Shown: positions 1,683 through 62,996 of the stretch, piece after piece
How the letters are laid out: the number at the start of each line of letters is the position of its first letter
Position numbering within the stretch: the stretch's first letter is position 1
Assembly (NCBI GenBank): GCA_000611775.1
Contig: KK106983.1
Coordinates: forward strand, 2,352,808-2,416,807
Length of the DNA stretch: 64,000 bases
Direction of reading: 5' to 3'
Source: Umbilicaria muhlenbergii
Lineage: Eukaryota; Ascomycota; Lecanoromycetes; Umbilicariales; Umbilicariaceae
Notes under the pieces: generated by a model
Told to the model about the DNA's origin: nothing
Seen by the model: only the letters and a program-made list of their open reading frames with translations
Database searches by the model: none
Program-made: the position numbers and the translations under genes

Positions 1683-3259
1683 CTATTGCATCTTCTTACC
1701 AGCACTCGGCGAAAAGGTCGGCTCACTATAGAGCCATATGGCCACGAAAACCACCCATCCAGCAGCCGTGATCCACACGCCCGCAATCCAAACCCACCCT
1801 GCGCTGATTTTCCAACTTCTCGGCCACTCGTCGTGCGCGAAGTGGCGGACTGAAACCTCCCTCTTGATATCGAGGTTCGTCCAGAACGGTCGCTTATAGT
1901 TGACGCGGAAAGAGTAAATGCCGTGTTGGTCTGGTACGCGGAAGGATGCGCTGAAAAGAGTGCTGTTGGTAGTTGTGGAGATGGGTTGGAGGTTCAGACG
2001 ATGGAAAGGTGAAAGCATGGTAAACTCGAGCTGGAGGGCGTCGTTGGGGGAGATCTCCAGCGGCTCTAGGTGATCGTTGTTATAAGAGGACAATTCAATA
2101 TTGAAGGTCTAACAATGATGTTAGCATTATGTGAGGAGGATGCAGAAGGGTCGGTATGCGTACCACATCGTTCTTGACCCTGTATATTGTAGGGTTCAAG
2201 TAGCCCAGCTGAGATACACTCTCGTTCCCGGACGCTTCTCTTGTAATAGAGCTCAGGTAGTGTTCAACTCTTCCAACTTTCAAGACCCCTGTCTCCATGA
2301 ATGTCCACGCAGTGATCTGCTTGGCGAATTCCCTGTTTGCAGTCTTTGTCTCCTTGCCTCCTGGACTCGTAATGGTGGCATCGAACCACTCGTTTTCCAA
2401 TGCTTCAACAGATCCAAAAACCGTAAAGCGTGCCGAGTTCCTTGCCTGCATTGCCGATACGAGCGCGATCTGTTGCCCTACCGCAAAGGGATCCTCCACC
2501 GTCACAGCCTCGTCTTTCGGGTTGTAGCTGTATGCCGTTGTTGATGCGGTCAGAATTGGTGCAAGAAGTGGACTTGCGTTGCCCAGCTCCTGAGCTACGC
2601 TTCGAGGAAATGCGATGATGCCGTCTCCACCGAAGAAATTCGTAACATCAGATCGCAGAGGCTTTGGTTGCGACAGTAGCAGAACATCATGCTTCTCGCT
2701 AGCAGATGTAGTGTCATGATTGAAGTGGTCCACGACCAGGGAAGTTCGGTCAGGAGGTAGCTGGATGTCGAATTCGAGGAGGAGAGAGGAAATGGCGCTT
2801 GGGGTTGGCGAATCGGCGGACAGAGTGAGGAGGATGTTGCCACCCTTATTGATGAATTGGAGGAGGACTTTAGGCGCTAGTGCTGGACCCAAGCCTTTCT
2901 TCAAGTCAGCAACCCTCCTTCGGGTGAGAAAGCAGATGGGCATACCTTTTGATTTGGGGGGCAGGAGGATTATGTGGTCGTATGCTCGCTCGCCAAGTCG
3001 GAACAATGCAAGCTTGTCGTTCTTCGGTGACTCGCAGGATAGCTTGAAACCTCGTTCTATAGTCGAGGAGATTAGTCTTTCCACGTTGATACTGACAGCT
3101 ATTGCCCTCTTGCGCACCTTCAAGGTCCCCTAAGAACTGCGAATACTTCTCCTTTTCAGCCACTTCCTCAATCACGACCAGCAGCCTACTTCCGCTGCTA
3201 CTGAGAGCTTGCACCAAGCTCAGCAGTGCCAGCAGAAGAAAGGAGAAGAGCCACCGCAT
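1683..3259 (-). CDS. WBP1: Oligosaccharyltransferase 48-kDa subunit (WBP1/OST48/DDOST)
   Basis: This is an essential non-catalytic subunit of the ER oligosaccharyltransferase, which transfers the dolichol-linked glycan to Asn residues of nascent proteins. Exons are 3259-3118, 3056-2946, 2894-2164 and 2108-1683 (469 aa, in frame); introns are 51-61 nt. Residues 1-20 form a signal peptide (MRWLFSFLLLALLSLVQA). The lumenal domain shows family hallmarks such as LPPKSKG, FGGDGIIAFPRS and the C-terminal YSFRVNYKRPFW. One membrane span lies near residues 425-450 (WVWIAGVWITAAGWVVFVAI). The protein ends in KKMQ, a KKXX-type ER-retrieval signal, as expected for this subunit. It is transcribed divergently from the complex I gene at 3586, so 3260-3585 is probably a shared promoter. 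Identity is clear. The exact acceptor of intron 2 could differ by one codon. Confidence 0.95.
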
Positions 3260-34757: not shown

Positions 34758-37699
34758 ATGGAGGAGTACTCATTTGCCAACTCTAGCGCTCTCGATTTTC
34801 CTGTTCATGTGAAAATGTTGGTTTCTTAGGCCATGTCCTCTACTCTGGGAGCTGCTGGCTAATCGATAGCTCCAGAGGTACTTTGGAGGGGCAGCAGAAC
34901 CCACTGCCTTTCTCGACCTTGCTACAAAGGCCAGACCTCAGACATATAGGCTCCAATACCAGGTAATCTAGACGTCGCACTCCGTTGTATTTCTCTGACA
35001 TGGTGAAGCCCAAACTCAGACCTCTATGTTACTGTTCAGTTATGGGCCGACTCTAAGCCGTTGACTGTCCCCGTACAAACAGCATACAAATCGTTCAAGA
35101 ACGCCCGCACTTGGAACGAGTGGTTAGAGTTACCTATTACAATTTCAACCTTACCTTTGAGCGCTCAGATTGCAGTCACGGTATGGGACCTCTCACCAAC
35201 CGGCGGGCCCGGAGCACGAGGGCATGCGATTCCCTTCGGTGGCACCACGGTACCACTCTTTGATGCGGACAACATCCTACAAAAGGGTCGGCAGAAGTGT
35301 CGCTTGTATCGTCATAAAGCAGCTGATGGCTTTTCTTCAACCAAAACACCCGCAGTTCCACGTCCGCCGAGGAGACGGACCCAAAACGGGCTCAACAACG
35401 AACACGAGGCAGAACCCGAGGAAGATGAGCTCGAGAGGTTGGAGAAACTCTTTAAAAAGCATGAGATGGGAGAAATTCCGAGGATAGACTGGCTTGATCA
35501 ACTCGTGTTTAAAGCAGTGGATAAGAAAAGGCAAGAGGCAGAGGCGATTGCGAAACTCAGGAGTCGCAACAACGGCAGGAGAAAATCGCCCTCGAACGGA
35601 CAAGGCATAGGCGGTACTGATAAAGAAGCATGGCCACGGGCTGATGCCGGTGATTCAGAGTCGGAGGACGAAGGCGATGACGGGAAATACACGTTGATCA
35701 TTGACTTCCCACGCTTTGATTTTCCTATAGTCTTTACTGATTATGAGTATCCTCCACCACCCATTTCATCGCTGCCATATTACCCTTCGCCAACGGCAAA
35801 CGTCAATCTAAAACCACCACCAGAAGTACAGCTTGGGCCAGGCATTAATGGCACAGGTAATGGGCTTGGAGAAGACGACGAGAATGCACTTCCATTGATC
35901 AGGATCTATGATCCAGAAGTAGGTGCCAAGGATAATCCGGCAGAGAGCAAGCACAGACGACTGGTTCGGAGTCATCGCACGGGGGTTCTAGACCGAGATC
36001 TGAAGCCTAATGCAAAGATCCGCGATGAGCTCAACACCATTATGTCGTACGGACCCACACAGGAACTTAACGGGGAGGAGAAAGATCTTGTATGGAAATT
36101 CAGACATCATCTCACGCGCGACAAGCGAGCTCTCACCAAGTTCGTCAAATCCGTCGCCTGGCAAGATCAAAGCGAGGCTCGACAGGCTGTCCAGATTCTG
36201 CCCAAATGGACGGAAATCGACGTTGACGATGCTCTGGAGCTTCTGGGACCTACATTCGACAACCCAGCTGTCAGGGCGTACGCTGTCGATCGCTTACGCA
36301 AATCGGATGATGATGAGTTGCTACTGTACCTACTTCAGCTAGTACAAGCTTTGAAGTTTGAGAAAATATCACCAGAGACGAGTAGTGATATCAGTCAGGA
36401 CTCCTCGTTGGCAAAGTTTCTGATATCCCGAGCGACCAACGATATGATGCTCGGCAATTTTCTGCATTGGTATCTCATGGTTGAATGCGATGACCGAAGC
36501 CCAGATCAGGTCAAGGAGCATCGAAAACTATTCGCTAAAGTGGAATTTGATTTCATGAATGAGCTCACGCAAGTGCCTGGGGGCGCCGAACGCCGGAAAG
36601 TCTTGCTGCGGCAAGGCGAGTTGATCACAGTACTGTCCAAAATCTCAAAGGAGATACGCTTCTCCCGCGAGGACCGGCCTCGTAAGGTGGAGAGATTGAA
36701 ACGGTATTTGGCCGATCCGAAGAATGAGCTGACATCGTTCGAGCCCTCGCTGCCTTTGCCGCTGGATCCAAGTGTCTCCATCGTTGGCTGCTATCCAGAG
36801 GAATCAATGGTCTTCAAATCATCCCTTTTCCCTCTTCTCATCCACTTTAAGACATCAGACGGCAAGAAGTACCCAGTCATATTCAAGACAGGAGATGACC
36901 TTCGACAAGATCAGCTGGTCATTCAGATCATCTCGTTGATGGACAGACTGCTGAGGAAAGAGAACCTTGACCTGAAGCTGTCACCCTACCGTATCCTTGC
37001 CACGAGCCCGAATGCAGGAGCGGTACAGTTCGTGGGCTCCATGAGCTTGGCGGCGGCGTCCGCCAAGTACAAAGGCAGTATACTGGCATACCTGAAGGCC
37101 AACAATCCGGACGATAAAGCGGACCTGGGAGTTAGAAAAGAGACAATGGACACGTTCGTGAAAAGCTGCGCTGGTTACTGTGTCATTACGTATCTACTGG
37201 GTGTGGGAGATCGCCATCTGGACAATCTTCTCCTAGCTCCTGACGGTGAGTTCTCCTTCACGCATGGCTTTCAAACGGCCAGACTGACTATTGTATAGGT
37301 CACTTCTTCCACGCCGACTTCGGCTATATACTCGGCCGCGACCCCAAGCCCTTCGCTCCAATGATGAAGCTATGCAAAGAAATGGTCGAAGGTATGGGCG
37401 GCGCTAATTCCACCCACTACTCCCAGTTCAAGCAATACTGCTTCACGGCGTACACTACTCTCCGGAAATCGAGCAACCTGATCCTCAATCTCTTCAGCTT
37501 GATGGTCGATGCGAACATCCCGGATATCAAGATGGAGCCGGATAAAGCGGTCTTGAAGGTTCGAGACCGCTTTCACTTGGAGATGACGGAAGATGAGGCC
37601 ATTCGCCATTTCGACACCTTGATCAGTGATAGTGTCAATTCGATTTTTCCAATAGTTATTGATACTATTCATAACATGATGCAGAATCTCAGGCCATAG
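34758..37699 (+). CDS. VPS34: Class III phosphatidylinositol 3-kinase Vps34
   Basis: The kinase makes PI3P on endosomes, vacuole and autophagosome precursors, working with Vps15 and Atg6/Vps30. Exons 34758-34816, 34876-34962, 35009-37245 and 37299-37699 give 927 aa in frame. The first two small exons were found by family pattern: MEEYSFANSSALDFPVHVK and IGTLEGQQNPLPFSTLLQRP lead into the C2 domain (SDLYVTVQLWADSKPLTVPV). The helical PIK domain spans about 340-530. The kinase domain (about 640-927) has the ATP-binding FKTGDDLRQDQLV, the catalytic loop GVGDRHLDNLLL (about 779) and the activation segment HADFGYILGRDPKPF, which is split by the last intron. The C-terminus (SIFPIVIDTIHNMMQNLRP) is the membrane-binding helix. 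An insertion rich in Asp, Glu and Gly lies at about 140-205. Confidence 0.96.
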
Positions 37700-44098: not shown

Positions 44099-45031
44099 GA
44101 TATAATGATGGTGGGTTCCAGGGTCCCGGCGAGTTCTGGGGAAGTGTGGGGTTGCACCAAAAGCGCCACGGCTCTGCAAGATGATCCCTGCAATTCACCA
44201 GTCTAAGGTTACCTTATGATGGCCTTTTTACCCTGACCTGCTTTCCATCATGTATTGTCAAAGGGCTCACCCGCTGCAGAAGCTCTCAATGAAAGGGTTA
44301 CATGATACTAAGCGGTTGTCCAAAGCCATTCTTCAGGCCTTTGATTGTTAACGTCTGACAAATGAACCTCGGTCTGATCAAGATAACAACTGCGCCAACG
44401 CTGTCGTTGAGTTGCTCTGCATATTTAATCGCCGATTCAAAGGTTCAATGTTATATTAAATGTCAGACTCGGAGTTGGTGCTACAGTCCGGGTTAGGCAA
44501 TGAAAGCCCATATTTATATTCGGTTCTGCAATTGCCTATTGCCTATCCAGTTCTGCACCCTGGAATGCGTTCGCCCCCTGGTGTCAAGATGCATGAATTG
44601 GCACCAGAAGAGGAACCAAGCGAGCAAGCTCAGTGCGAGCTCCTCCTCAGGCGGCCGCTTTAGCAAGGCACCCGAGCCAGGTAATCTGGGGTTTAGTCTT
44701 AGAATATAAGGAACGATCAGTTCGTACTCTCCATCTTTGTCAATCAAGATCAACGTCCTCGATCTATTGGCAGTCTCGGCAGTGTACCGAGCATTCGTGA
44801 ATGTGTGACAAGCTGCGGCAGAAACCAATTGGTGCTTACATAAAACCGAGCCAGACGGTCTTGGAAAACCGCGGCCCGAATGGTTCCAGTTTGAGATATT
44901 CTTAGGGACTTTTCCGAGTATCGTCTTCGACGGGGCTGGTAGGAACTAAGATATTTCCGCAGTGAAGTATTGGCTTAGGCAGCAGATGGACGTACAAACA
45001 TAAATTATAATAAGCCTTGAATTTCCAAGAT
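44099..45031. other. Upstream region of IVD, no protein gene supported
   Basis: Between the IVD start and the tRNA-Trp gene. Two overlapping frames (44460-44663 plus, 44514-44828 minus) are short and show no domain. The last 30 bp before the tRNA are AT-rich (TAAATTATAATAAGCC), as often seen upstream of fungal tRNA genes. Confidence 0.45.
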
Positions 45032-45152
45032 GGGCCTGTGGCGCAACGGTAGCGCGTTGTAAGAACCCTGCTGTTTTCGCTTGTAAATGGATATTAATCT
45101 TCCACAGCGACTCCAGATCGAAAGGTTGCCAGTTCAAATCTGACCGGGCTCA
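45032..45152 (+). tRNA. tRNA-Trp (CCA) interrupted by a 49-nt insertion in the anticodon stem
   Basis: Removing 45059-45107 leaves a 72-nt tRNA. The acceptor stem pairs 45032-45038 with 45145-45151 (two G-U pairs), with discriminator A at 45152. The D stem GCGC/GCGC encloses loop AACGGTA. The anticodon stem TTCGA/TCGAA is five perfect pairs around loop CTCCAGA, anticodon CCA at 45113-45115. The variable loop is AGGTT and the T loop TTCAAAT. Invariant bases T8, A14, G18, G19, A21, G53-T54-T55-C56, A58 and C61 are all present. The only flaw is a C:A mismatch at 50:64 of the T stem. Internal promoters are an A box (TGGCGCAACGG, 45039) and a B box (GTTCAAATC, 45132), with a T5 terminator just downstream. 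The insertion lies between positions 28 and 29, not at the canonical 37/38 intron site. It could be a spliced gene or a pseudogene. Confidence 0.85.
45059..45107 (+). other. 49-nt GT-AG intron-like insertion inside tRNA-Trp
   Basis: The insertion splits the 5' strand of the anticodon stem (TT | CGA). Requiring the TTCGA/TCGAA stem fixes both ends without choice, and they read GTAAGAAC...TTCCACAG, a spliceosomal donor and acceptor. ATTAAT about ten nt before the AG could serve as branch site. Its length matches the protein-gene introns nearby (45-75 nt). A TGGA within it could pair with the anticodon-loop TCCA, as canonical tRNA introns do with their anticodon, but four bases can match by chance. 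Confidence 0.65.
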
Positions 45153-45153
45153 A

Positions 45154-45158
45154 TTTTT
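45154..45158 (+). terminator. RNA polymerase III terminator of tRNA-Trp
   Basis: A run of five T begins two bases after the discriminator base, as expected for a Pol III stop signal. Confidence 0.7.
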
Positions 45159-55243: not shown

Positions 55244-57344
55244 CTACGACCATCCATCTCCCATATCGAACCGATGCATTGGCACCTTGCTCTTCGTAGG
55301 CGGCAGATGGTTGTGCATTTTCTTGACACCCAATTTGCCGGCCAGTTTGCAACTGCCGCTGCCCGCCGCATCAATCGTCTTCTCGCGCCCGCTCGCGTAC
55401 TCCTCGAGACTGCAGCAATCCACATTCTTAACCCAGCGATCGCCAATGGCGTCGTGGATACTGAGTCTCTTTTCCGGAACGGGATGCATCATACGTAAGA
55501 GTAGACTCTTGAGACCTAGCTTTTCGAGATTGCTGAACAATGGCCCGCAACTGGGCATGCCGTTCTTCTTGTCCGATTCCACGAGGCCATCTGGATGGCT
55601 TGCGAGAAACTTATCCCAACCGCTGGCGAACTTGGCATAGAATGGTTGGTTTCGATCGGCAGCAGGCCACGGATTGCCACCGTAGTGCATGGTGAGGAGA
55701 ACGACGGCGCAGGACCAGACGTCTAGAGGTCGAGGATCATAATCACCTGAAAACACTCGGTCAATAAGGAAAGTCAATCAGTGGGAAACAACCCGAGCAA
55801 TTACCATTCTTCTCGAGGACCTCCGGAGCAATGTATGGAAGACTCCCACAAATGCCTGGCGCGCACCGTCTTATTTCTCCCATGTTCTTCCCGCATTCTC
55901 CGCCAGCGGCCCTCAGACCAGGGTGTTCCCCACAAAACACATCAGACACACCAAAATCCGTAATCTTCAAGTGACCATCGTCTGTCATCAAGAGATTCTC
56001 CAGTTTGATATCCCTGTGGGCAATGCCGTGACTATGTAGGTAGGCGACTCCGCGAAGTAGCTGCTTGAACAAGCAGAGATTATCATCGAGCGTCAAGTAC
56101 TTTTTCTGCACCAGCGAAAACAGTTCACCCTGAGGGCAAAACTCCATGACGTGATTCCAGCGACCTGATTGCGTACATAGTCGAACAGTCTGCACAATGT
56201 TGGGGTGATGCAAGCTCTTGGCAATGCAGTATTCCGATTTCACCTTCTTGATATATTCCTCTTCGTCCTCTTTCTGCCCTTTCCTGCGGAACTCTTTGAC
56301 CGCGTAAACCTCATCTGCCGGTCCACCTTTCCGCGTCATGAGCTTAACGGTGGCGGTAGCTCCTTTTCCTATCATCTTCCCTCTCTTTCCGGACAGCAAG
56401 CTCCCACTTGCAAACTCCTTACTCAGTTCTACGACATCTACAGTAAAGTCGTCAGGAAGACTTGTGCTCAGCCTGCGCGCTTTCAATCCAACCCCAGTGT
56501 TCGCGTGCATCGAGATCGAGTTGTCCGGTGAAAAATTGTTGATTTGACTCATACTCGTCGAGCGTTTTCTGTACTCTGGCCGGGGGGTATTGCCAAACAT
56601 GACTCGGCTTCTATCCTTCAGATGAAGCCCAGTCGACGATCGCACCTTTGGACCGAAGGGATCTGAGGGTCCGTCCCATTGAGATTCATGAATGCTATAT
56701 ACTGTGCTCGTTGGAGACCCTGGCGAAGGGGGTGTATTCGACTGTGATGTATTCGTCGACTGTCCAGCAGAGACGGAGAAAGAAGGTTTCTGAAATGGCA
56801 AAATGGGTTTTGGTGTGGAGTCGGGTATGCCAGTATGATTGCTGTGCAATACATCCATGCCATGGGAGTTTGATCTTCGGAAGAGAGACTTGATCGTATT
56901 CGAGGCCGATCGTTTTGAAGGTAAAGGCTTACTTGTCGGCGGAGCCGATGGATGGGCACCGATGTGACGCGGTGCCGAGTGGGGAGCACTGGACGGTGGG
57001 GCTGCGGCCGTAGTGCTGACCATGAGAGGTTTGGCAGAGGTAACAGTTGACGTATAGGAACCGCTATGGACGTCCGACAGGCCATCGTGGTCTTGAAAGG
57101 CATGAGGATGTGAATCACTTGTGGGTGTAATGGCTTCGGCTGGCTCACTGCTGGTTTCGTCCTCGTCCTCTTCCGGTATAGATTCTTGAGCATCGACGTG
57201 TCGTACTTCAGGGGAGGCTGAGGAATGCGAAGCCGGAGTGGTTGGTAATGGCGAAATGGTGTCGGTAGAGATCTGCACAGTCTCTAAGGGAGGTAGCATT
57301 GTATTGTGTCCAAGGGCGACGCCTTGGGCATGTTGAAATGACAT
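55244..57344 (-). CDS. Ser/Thr protein kinase, Hal4/Hal5-like (potassium transport and halotolerance type)
   Basis: Exons 57344-55805 and 55746-55244 (intron 58 nt, GTAATT...TTCAG, TTGAC branch) give 680 aa. Residues 1-310 are disordered, Ser/Pro/Thr-rich, with SNTIKSLFRRSNSHGMDVL. The kinase domain (about 318-620) has a glycine loop KMIGKGATATVKLM, the ATP Lys in YAVKEFRRK, the catalytic loop HRDIKLENLLM (about 446), DFGVSDVF, and GSLPYIAPEVLEK. The DFGVSDVF and WNHVMEFCPQGELFSLV pattern matches the Hal4/Sat4-Hal5 group of fungal kinases, which stabilise the potassium transporter Trk1 and nutrient permeases at the plasma membrane. The conserved C-terminal segment includes HPVPEKRLSI. The ATG at 57344 (MSFQHAQG) was preferred to an in-frame ATG about 100 nt upstream in sequence that looks non-coding. 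Confidence 0.9.
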
Positions 57345-60691: not shown

Positions 60692-62996
60692 CTATCGAAG
60701 ACCTTGGCCATCTCTGACAAGCTGCAACCCCTGCTCCTTCAGCTTGAATTTCTGGATTTTCCCGCTGGCCGTCTTGGGATAACTGTCTACCCAGAACACA
60801 TACTTGGGTACTAAATCTCGTCAGCTTCATGCGGCTCAATGCACTTGCAAACAGTGACCACGTACCCAAGTGATGACTCAACTTCTCCCGGACCCAGTTC
60901 CTGACCTCCTCCGCTGTAATCGCTGAATCCTTGTGAGGAATCACAAATGCAGCGACCACTTCGCCGTAGCGCTCATCGCTCAGACCCACCACGCTGGCCT
61001 CCGCTACACATGGATGCCCGAACAAGCAGTTCTCCACCTCCAAGGGGTGAATGTTTTCTCCGCCTTTGATAATTATGTCCTTGATGCGGCCCGTGATCTT
61101 TACATATCCATCCGCATCCATTTCGCCTTCGTCGCCAGTCTATCAGAAACGTTAGGAAGACCTTGTGCGGGATGGAGTCACCGTGAACTTACATGCATCC
61201 ACATCTTCCCAGTATCATCCGGCACCAACACTTCGGCTGTCTTCTCCGGATCGCCCCAGTATCCCTTCATTACCAGATATCCAGACACGGCCAGCTCTCC
61301 TCTGGTGCCAATGGGTAGGATCTTTGTCCAGTCCGCCGGATCTACTATCTTCGCCTCAACATGTGGCATCAGTCTCCCGACACTGTCAATCCGCTTGGCG
61401 AGAGGGTCGTCAGTCGTCGTCATCGCCGAGACAGGACTTGTCTCTGTCATTCCATAGCATATGGTCAACTCGGTCAAATTCAGCATCTTGTGAAGCTTGC
61501 GCATCAATTCTGCTGGGATACTCGAGCCGGCTGCTATACCTGTTCGAAGGTACTGGAAACCCTCATATGGGACCTGACCGTTTTGTAAAAGCTCAAGCTC
61601 TGCGACAAACATGGTAGGAACGCCGTAGAGGGCAGTACATTTCTCTTCCTGGACACTTTTCAACGTGGCGTAAGGATCGAAAGCTTCGGCTGGAAAGACT
61701 ATGGCGGAACCGTGAGTCGCTGTAGCCATATACCCGAGGATACAGCCAAAGCAATGAAAGAGCGGTGGCGGGCAGCAGACTATGTCATGTGCTGTGAGAA
61801 GCATCCTATCTCCGATCCCGTTGCCGTTATTGAGTATAGATCGATGAGATAGACATGCGGCTTTAGGCATTGAAGTCGTCCCGGAGGTGAATTGGATATT
61901 GACAATCTCATCGGGATGAAGATTTTGCGATGGGAGCGACCTGCCCGGATCTCCATCCTCAAGTACGTCTTGGTAACTAATCGTCGACCTCCACTGACTG
62001 GTATCAACACGGCCATGGGAGTTGTCCACTATTATTACTTTCTTTAATGACGGGACTGCCTTCGACTCGATTTTCGTTGCCCCAAGGTCTAGAACGACCT
62101 GTTGTAGAAGCAAGGCGTTCGAACGGGGTTCTTTTCGGGGTAGATTGGTTTCCGTGCCTATGATAAGGTGAGATGCTTCGAGGTGGCTGAGTGCAGCAAT
62201 AACTTGATTGGCGTTAAAAGCAGGATTCAGCGGCACCTTGTACTTGTCAGCTTAGAAAAGAAAAGCAGTAAGGCTACAAAGCCTTCCATAGCAGCGACAG
62301 TAGGGAGGGCTGTGCGATGGTTCCCAGTGTTGGTCAGGCTGTATTACACCGTCATACCATACTTGGGAAATCGAGCAACAGAATCCGGCCAAAGATGAGA
62401 CTCAACCTGATCTGGGCTTGGAATTCCCAAGCACCCTCACTGAAGCTGCGGCATGCGCTCTTTACGTTTGGGAGGGGACGGGCAACTCACTAAGATAGCC
62501 CCTAGCTTGAATGCCCCATAGGTAGCCTTGATCGAAATCAGCGGAGGGTCCTCGAATAGTCATCTAGGTCTCGTACAATGGCGTACTCGATATTGTTGCC
62601 TAGCGAAACAGCCACTCGGTCCCCTTTCTTCACTCCTGCCCTTGCCAGTCCTTGTGCCAGTGCATTGCTTTTCTTGTCCAATGAGTCGTACGTAAGACGT
62701 GTCCGCTGATGACGAGATACAACCCTAGGCCTCTGTTAGTTGTAGCTTTCATAAGCAGGGAGTTGCAACTTGCGCAGTACGGTCTCCAAACTTCGACACA
62801 ATCGACGAGAAATGCTCCCCGACAGTCTGTTCAAGTAAAGGGGGCTTTCAACTGTTAGCAAGAGGTGGTTGCCATCTTTTGGGAGAGAGCTTACCGCTGA
62901 AGGACCCTGGTCGTAAGAGTCTGTTAGAAACTGCCGGTTCTGATATTGTACAGATACCCGCGAGATCCATTGCGCTCGGAGCAGAGCCCGTCGCAT
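60692..62996 (-). CDS. Acyl-CoA synthetase (AMP-forming; ACSF2-like medium/short-chain type), probably mitochondrial
   Basis: The enzyme activates a fatty or other carboxylic acid to its CoA ester via an acyl-AMP. Seven exons (62996-62895, 62826-62774, 62724-62577, 62526-62491, 62236-61193, 61139-60866, 60810-60692) sum to 591 aa in frame. An Arg-rich N-terminus (MRRALLRAQWISRVSVQYQ) suggests mitochondrial import. The AMP-binding signature FTSGTTSMPKAACLSH lies near 228, followed by CYGMTETSPVS, TGDEGEMDADGYVKITGRIK, KGGENIHPLEVE (about 485) and PKTASGKIQKFKL with the C-terminal catalytic Lys. Substrate cannot be read off. Intron 2 (62773-62725) begins GC rather than GT (GCAAGT...CCTAG, with CAACTAAC branch); no GT donor keeps the frame. 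Intron 4 is long (254 nt). Family members of similar length make propionyl- to medium-chain CoA esters. Confidence 0.92.

Follow-up and report, generated by a model that had tools for sequence, protein, structure and literature searches.

Introns with spliceosomal signals in tRNA-Trp and other tRNA genes of Umbilicaria muhlenbergii

The window analysed here, a stretch of 64,000 nt from Umbilicaria muhlenbergii (contig KK106983.1, positions 2,352,808 to 2,416,807 of the forward strand), contains a tRNA-Trp(CCA) gene at 45032-45152 that yields a clean fold only when nucleotides 45059-45107 are left out. In the textbook picture, a dedicated endonuclease cuts tRNA introns. The insert begins with GT, ends with AG and lies between standard tRNA positions 28 and 29, not 37 and 38, so that it is not a canonical nuclear tRNA intron. 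The question raised by an earlier note on this DNA, which was made from the sequence, was whether the spliceosome removes the insert, whether the tRNA splicing endonuclease (SEN) acts here at a site new to it, or whether the insertion has disabled the gene.

Anatomy of the tRNA-Trp gene

The Rfam model RF00005 matched 45032-45152 on the plus strand with 36.6 bits, and this was the only RNA family match in the window at the gathering threshold. The features of the locus are as follows.

45000-45013, plus strand: AT-rich, TATA-like stretch ATAAATTATAATAA 5' of the gene; other tRNA genes of this genome are likewise AT-rich in this region
45032-45058, plus strand: exon 1, spliced nt 1-27, comprising the 5' half of the acceptor stem, the D-arm and the first two anticodon-stem bases (Rfam, ARAGORN and gene model)
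45059-45107, plus strand: non-canonical intron, 49 nt, GT..AG, between standard tRNA positions 28 and 29
45059-45064, plus strand: 5' splice site GTAAGA of the intron (from the sequence)
45074-45077, plus strand: TTTT within the intron, a possible weak Pol III terminator (from the sequence)
45094-45098, plus strand: putative branch site TTAAT, with branch A at 45097, the 11th nt from the intron 3' end
45105-45107, plus strand: 3' splice site CAG of the intron (from the sequence)
45108-45152, plus strand: exon 2, with anticodon CCA, variable loop, T-arm with B box, 3' half of the acceptor stem and discriminator A
45154-45158, plus strand: TTTTT, Pol III terminator-like, directly 3' of the gene (from the sequence)

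With no introns allowed, ARAGORN found no tRNA at 45032-45152; with 45059-45107 excised, it returned a clean tRNA-Trp(cca) of the 72-nt type, in which the acceptor, D and anticodon stems are paired and the T-stem has one mismatch, C50-A64 (45129 and 45143). When 625 pairs of start and end were scored by tRNA structure, this cut was the single best. The statements of the earlier note that an almost perfect tRNA-Trp appears only without the insert, and that both boundaries are uniquely fixed, were thereby borne out, and the GTAAG start, CAG end and branch-like site that it had read agree with the insert (GTAAGA..TTAAT..CAG, 49 nt). A covariance model built on spliced tRNAs gave the window gene 52.5 bits, its own spliced form being among the 14 sequences of the model. 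In intron mode, ARAGORN proposed a tRNA-Trp(cca) of 84 nt with a 39-nt intron, which was rejected as spurious because its anticodon was taken from the insert's own TTCCA and its variable region was over-long.

Taken alone, the combination of GT, branch motif and AG at this locus is weak evidence; a loose intron pattern was seen at 48 places in the window, and 12 Markov controls gave 41 on average. The strength of the intron call comes from boundaries fixed by structure and from recurrence in other tRNA genes. A group I or group II self-splicing intron, with its ribozyme fold of hundreds of nt, does not fit: the Rfam scan of the window returned only the tRNA, and the introns are just 48-62 nt long.

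Among the genes of the window are those for OST48, a myosin heavy chain, a Vps34-like PI3-kinase and a protein carrying a GATA domain of areA type, a set in keeping with a fungus. A first scan of the window for coding introns was noisy; the following introns were delimited.

37246-37298, plus strand: coding intron of the Vps34-like PI3-kinase, 53 nt, GTGAGT..CTGAC..TAG, whose excision completes the kinase domain match
2109-2163, minus strand: coding intron of OST48, 55 nt, GTACGC..CTAAC..TAG, whose excision adds the OST48 middle domain
61140-61192, minus strand: likely coding intron of an AMP-binding enzyme, 53 nt, GTAAGT..CTAAC..TAG
55747-55804: fourth likely coding intron, in a kinase, 58 nt

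With 37246-37298 excised, the match to PI3/PI4-kinase covered profile positions 2-240, compared with 2-162 before, and in the joined product of 61140-61192, for which the spliced form alone was scanned, the AMP-binding domain and its C-terminal domain flank the junction. In the first three of these introns, the A of the branch motif (CTGAC or CTAAC) lies at nt 12-13 from the 3' end. The three window mRNA introns compared, of 53-55 nt (53, 55 and 53 nt in the order listed) with CTAAC or CTGAC at the same distance, have the same build as the tRNA introns of 48-62 nt, in keeping with the proposed resemblance of the insert to local mRNA introns.

Non-canonical introns across the genome

The genome surveyed comprises 34,788,950 bases in seven contigs, with the window at C3:2352808-2416807. 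The Rfam tRNA model, for which 63 of 1258 candidates were scored, gave at least 19 tRNAs; two of those listed, a Phe and a Thr gene, were odd in having GT..AG inserts at other sites. Five patterns consisting of a T-arm motif followed by TTTT were scanned (for one of them, 100 of 118 places were among the matches listed), and places plausible by eye were examined in sets of 20, 20 and 18 regions, together with loci from Rfam and other searches. The patterns require an intact T-arm and a nearby T-run, so that introns beyond about nt 53 are missed. The initial exon models were made by eye, with an expectation of GT-AG ends. Applied to 63 other loci, the spliced-tRNA covariance model produced 27 matches. 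ARAGORN can misread interrupted genes, a Thr gene having been reported as Gln and a Phe gene as Met.

Non-canonical introns, 33 in number, were resolved in 26 of 45 tRNA genes, a sample and not a census; these 26 genes cover 15 amino acids, and the 19 genes without such introns serve other anticodons. The survey yielded no Tyr, Cys or initiator Met gene, and several further anticodons were also missing, so the tRNA set is incomplete. The insert in tRNA-Trp, the one locus described in the earlier note, is real and belongs to a wider pattern. The intron-bearing genes are given below with the number of spliced nt that precede each non-canonical intron.

Trp, window: 27
Phe L029: 24
Phe L123: 24
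Thr-TGT L031: 24; also a canonical 37/38 intron
Ala-AGC L057: 48; also canonical
Ala-AGC L094: 13; also canonical
Ala-CGC L125: 22; also canonical
Arg-ACG L061: 18
Arg-ACG L112: 13 and 52
Gly-CCC L062: 28; also canonical
Thr-AGT L076: 10; also canonical
Thr-AGT L109: 31; also canonical
Leu-AAG L081: 21; also canonical
Leu-CAG L101: 30; also canonical
Asp L086: 26; also canonical
Asp L091: 31 and 46; also canonical
Ile-AAT L089: 29
Ser-AGA L093: 14
Gln-TTG L084: 49; also canonical
Lys-CTT L088: 11; also canonical
Lys-CTT L136: 4, 9, 18 and 31; also canonical
Elongator Met L104: 27; also canonical
Val-AAC L111: 16; also canonical
Val-AAC L114: 16; also canonical
Pro-TGG L126: 6 and 23; also canonical
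Pro-AGG L124: 14 and 27; also canonical

Five genes have two or more non-canonical introns, the maximum being four in Lys-CTT L136, in addition to its canonical one, and a canonical 37/38 intron is present as a further intron in 19 of the 26 genes. The position is after spliced nt 4-31 for 29 of the 33 introns and after nt 46-52 for the rest, introns beyond about nt 53 being invisible to the search. Some exons have just 4-9 nt; in Lys-CTT L136 the first has 4 nt (plus any transcript leader) and the next have 5, 9 and 13 nt.

Several loci were left out of these counts. L064 (1365-1522, minus strand) and L100 (minus strand) are related tRNA-like genes, GCCCGCTTAGTACA..GCGGGCG, with a long stem within the anticodon arm; their acceptor stems are full, and the T-stem is full in L064 and 4/5 in L100. 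L071/L140 and L103 are degenerate, tRNA-like remnants, and L090/L138, L095, L097/L137, L098, L106/L139 and L132 have a T-arm-like end with no gene resolved. At the remaining places examined by eye no tRNA was seen. L030, by eye a mitochondrial-like tRNA-Met near the end of contig C1, is a possible nuclear copy of mitochondrial DNA. L083 and L087 are repeat ends. The first repeat is dispersed in about a dozen copies (C1:996990, C2:397346, C4:39232 and L083 among them), each with a tRNA-like end GGTTCAATTCCTATTGGCGCTA and then a T-run, and is perhaps a tRNA-derived (SINE-like) element; the second ends in GGTTCAACTCCCCTCAAAGTTGATATTTTTGCCG or close variants, with a B-box-like motif and a T-run (C1:3932336, C1:4547157, C4:526296, C2:5551954 and L087). 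In L052, at about 1670-1732, a long, MITE-like inverted repeat cgtgccccgcccctaataatc..gattattaggggcggggcacg was seen by eye just 5' of an intron-free U6 gene.

The non-canonical introns have lengths of 48-62 nt and are bounded by GT-AG in 32 cases and by GA-AG in one of the 33. This sole exception, intron 1 of Pro-AGG, reads GAAAGT..CTAAC..CACAG. G occupies intron position 5 in 31/33, the commonest 5' sites are GTAAGT (8), GTAAGC (5), GTGAGT (4), GTAAGA (3) and GTATGT (3), and the 3' ends are CAG (22), TAG (7) and AAG (4). Every one of the 33 introns has a YTNAH motif (H standing for A, C or T) whose A is at nt 11-14 counted from the 3' end; when the intron cores were shuffled 2000 times, 5.5 introns had it on average and never more than 17. 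A GTRNGN-like 5' site, GT..AG ends and a branch motif at a constrained distance are U2-type features. None of 32 canonical 37/38 introns is GT-AG (0/19 in the intron-bearing genes and 0/13 in other tRNA genes, the latter 13 having been delimited by ARAGORN or by eye). Introner-like copies were not found, only the Phe and Val paralogue pairs among the 33 introns matching over more than 11 nt.

In a structure-only test, the two ends of each intron were moved by as much as 12 nt, and the resulting sequence was scored solely as a tRNA. A GT-AG cut was among the best cuts for 27 of the 33 introns, with 1.5 expected by chance; three models (both Thr-AGT and Pro-AGG) had been adjusted by 1 nt at the end or at the canonical intron, and before adjustment the count was 25/33, with 1.6 expected. 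A slightly better non-GT-AG cut existed for the other six (Ala-AGC L094, Ala-CGC, Arg-ACG L061, Gly-CCC, intron 2 of Asp L091 and the GA-AG intron of Pro-AGG). The best cut was unique for 13 introns, and in seven of these it was GT-AG; ties occurred for 20, nine with one identical product and eleven with different products.

Intactness, transcription and competing readings

A DNA search of the 34.8-Mb genome with the spliced tRNA-Trp gene returned its two exons at the window locus only. GACTCCA followed 16-46 nt on by the T-arm motif TTCRANYC occurred at 51 places, of which by eye only the window locus is a tRNA. The list of tRNA-Trp(CCA) genes obtained by DNA and pattern search thus holds none besides this one, and a second intact tRNA-Trp in unplaced sequence is unlikely given the seven large contigs. 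An intact tRNA-Phe was likewise not found in the genome; the two Phe genes found are both interrupted at the same place.

With G-U pairs allowed, the acceptor and T stems are fully paired in 21 of the 26 intron-bearing genes, and the remaining five (Trp, both Phe and both Thr-AGT) have one stem mismatch each, shared by both copies where two exist. The mismatch is at the T-stem pair 50-64 (C-A or C-T) in tRNA-Trp and both tRNA-Thr(AGT) genes (L076 and L109), and is G-G at 5-68 in both Phe copies (L029 and L123). Mismatches common to copies hint at tolerance or RNA editing. Between paralogues, exons are 74/74 identical and introns 45/58 for Val-AAC, and exons 72/73 and introns 42/50 for Phe. The two Lys-CTT genes (exons 72/73 identical) have their introns at entirely different places, as do the pairs for Thr-AGT, Arg-ACG, Asp and Ala-AGC (introns at different places; exon identity 66/73, 68/72, 68/72 and 61/72, respectively). 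This pattern would be expected from selection (or gene conversion) on the mature tRNA together with recurrent intron gain or loss.

Average A+T content at -40 to -23 was 76% in intron-bearing genes and 73% in others, and at -20 to -1 it was 53% and 61%, respectively; a TATA-like expression was present upstream of 13/26 and 9/19. A T-run of at least 4 starts within 22 nt of the 3' end in 26/26 genes, a count that owes something to the search itself, because the patterns by which most genes were found require TTTT. The A box, taken as positions 8-19, is split by introns in nine of the 26 genes (both Lys-CTT, Thr-AGT L076, Ala-AGC L094, Arg-ACG L112, Ser-AGA, Pro-AGG and both Val-AAC), and the B box in one, Arg-ACG L112. 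TTTT or longer occurs within a non-canonical intron in 5/26 genes, one Lys gene having TTTTT, and such runs could cause an early Pol III stop. In some plants and fungi, a TATA box lying upstream is of importance for the transcription of tRNAs (PMC3978253). With internal boxes split by introns, the upstream element may carry more weight here.

Cutting of the inserts at non-canonical sites by SEN, or by a relaxed form of it, has a parallel in Cyanidioschyzon merolae, where tRNA-Ile(UAU) has D-, anticodon- and T-arm introns with bulge-helix-bulge (BHB) motifs (PMC9602550), and SEN activity is to be expected in this genome from its canonical 37/38 introns. However, the central 4-bp helix of the BHB was found in 0/33 introns in exact register and in 3/33 with nine registers allowed, SEN would not be expected to favour GT and AG ends, a G at position 5 or a branch motif, and the canonical introns examined, none of them GT-AG, argue against removal of the non-canonical ones by SEN. 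Action of SEN at a new site is therefore disfavoured and appears very unlikely. The disabled gene of the earlier note, extended to the whole set, would mean that the interrupted genes are dead through intron or transposon insertion and that intact tRNA genes elsewhere do the work. The survey is incomplete, and the 19 resolved genes without a non-canonical intron could be counted in favour of this, though they are for other anticodons; the failure to find an intact tRNA-Trp or tRNA-Phe, the acceptor and T stems that are fully paired or carry a single mismatch, and the nearly identical exons with different introns in the closest paralogues all speak against it and make it highly improbable.

Motifs read by chance into random insertions would be a conceivable explanation for the Trp locus alone, given how frequent such motifs are in the window by chance, but for the set as a whole this reading is negligible in view of 33 branch motifs at a fixed distance, the structure-only agreement and the lack of GT-AG among canonical introns. 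Another reading accepts the introns as spliceosomal and makes the tRNAs products of Pol II, either directly or as parts of other Pol II transcripts. The split A and B boxes and the T-runs in introns of five genes fit such transcription, which is nevertheless considered unlikely: T-runs follow all 26 genes, if partly by selection in the search, the AT-rich region upstream is alike in genes with and without non-canonical introns, and spliced U6 provides a precedent for a Pol III transcript.

The spliceosome option is thus the one strongly supported by sequence, the GT..branch..AG architecture recurring in 26 tRNA genes. The insert in tRNA-Trp is very probably an ordinary U2-type spliceosomal intron, and its host a functional nuclear gene that seems to exist in a single copy. 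With this one included, at least 33 such introns lie in at least 26 tRNA genes, a pattern suggesting that tRNA production in this genome requires the spliceosome.

Proposed pathway and relation to known systems

In the pathway proposed for spliceosomal introns in these genes, the gene would be transcribed, probably by Pol III, assisted by the TATA-like element upstream in cases where an intron divides the A or B box. The introns of 48-62 nt would be taken out by the spliceosome through intron definition, for which it would rely on the 5' splice site, a branch site lying at a fixed distance and the YAG or AAG end; the tRNA body would fold after this removal, and SEN endonuclease and ligase would then excise the canonical 37/38 intron where present. 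Recognition by intron definition is suggested by the exons of 4, 5, 9 and 13 nt in Lys-CTT L136. The order of spliceosome first and SEN second is most likely, since the endonuclease would need the joined tRNA body; in yeast the endonuclease probably contacts the D-arm and acceptor stem (PMC3978253). Polymerase, splicing in vivo and order of steps are all deduced from the DNA. It is likely that the spliceosome is an essential tRNA-maturation machine in this organism. On this reading, spliceosomal introns would have entered nuclear tRNA genes repeatedly, for tRNA-Trp and tRNA-Phe no intact gene could be found, and single tRNAs of 72-82 nt would be made by two splicing systems acting one after the other, a gene containing as many as four introns for the spliceosome and one for the endonuclease.

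If this is true, the division of labour between two splicing systems would be broken, translation would depend directly on splicing capacity, and the spliceosome would be handling a highly structured RNA with exons as short as 4-13 nt. The genes would also offer a series of seemingly independent intron gains where there is no reading frame and where structure reveals both exon constraint and boundaries, and the paralogues with introns at different sites would make intron gain and loss directly testable. The same phenomenon may hide in other genomes, because standard tRNA finders can miss or misread such genes. Among the literature matches listed, a set with few subscription papers and no preprints, no report of spliceosomal introns in tRNA genes was recognised.

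A Pol III transcript can be spliced, as is known from U6 snRNA, which has mRNA-type introns in fission yeast and other fungi. The fungal U6 introns are, like the tRNA introns described here, of spliceosomal type within a short structured Pol III RNA gene; the hosts here differ in being 26 tRNA genes, often with a second intron type at 37/38, and the U6 gene found in this genome is continuous, with no interruption. The canonical 37/38 SEN introns differ from the non-canonical ones in place, in their length of 7-40 nt as modelled and in their ends (0/19 GT-AG). A 2017 study named U3 and U6 as the sole small structured RNAs for which interruption by an intron is known to be common, and described fungal U3 snoRNA introns as GT-AG, with an RCTRAC-type branch site, a mean length of 92 nt and a location in the 5' part of the RNA in 133 of 138 cases (PMC5832005). 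The tRNA introns share with them GT-AG ends, a branch site and a 5' bias (29/33 after spliced nt 4-31), and differ in the tRNA host, in numbers of up to four introns per gene, in exons of 4-13 nt and in lengths of 48-62 nt compared with the mean of 92 nt. Ectopic tRNA introns of C. merolae and Crenarchaeota have BHB motifs and are attributed to the tRNA endonuclease (PMC9602550 and PMC3978253). Several introns per tRNA gene and locations in the D-, anticodon and T-arms are common to those lineages and the present genome, whereas the introns there carry BHB motifs and those here have spliceosomal signals in their place.
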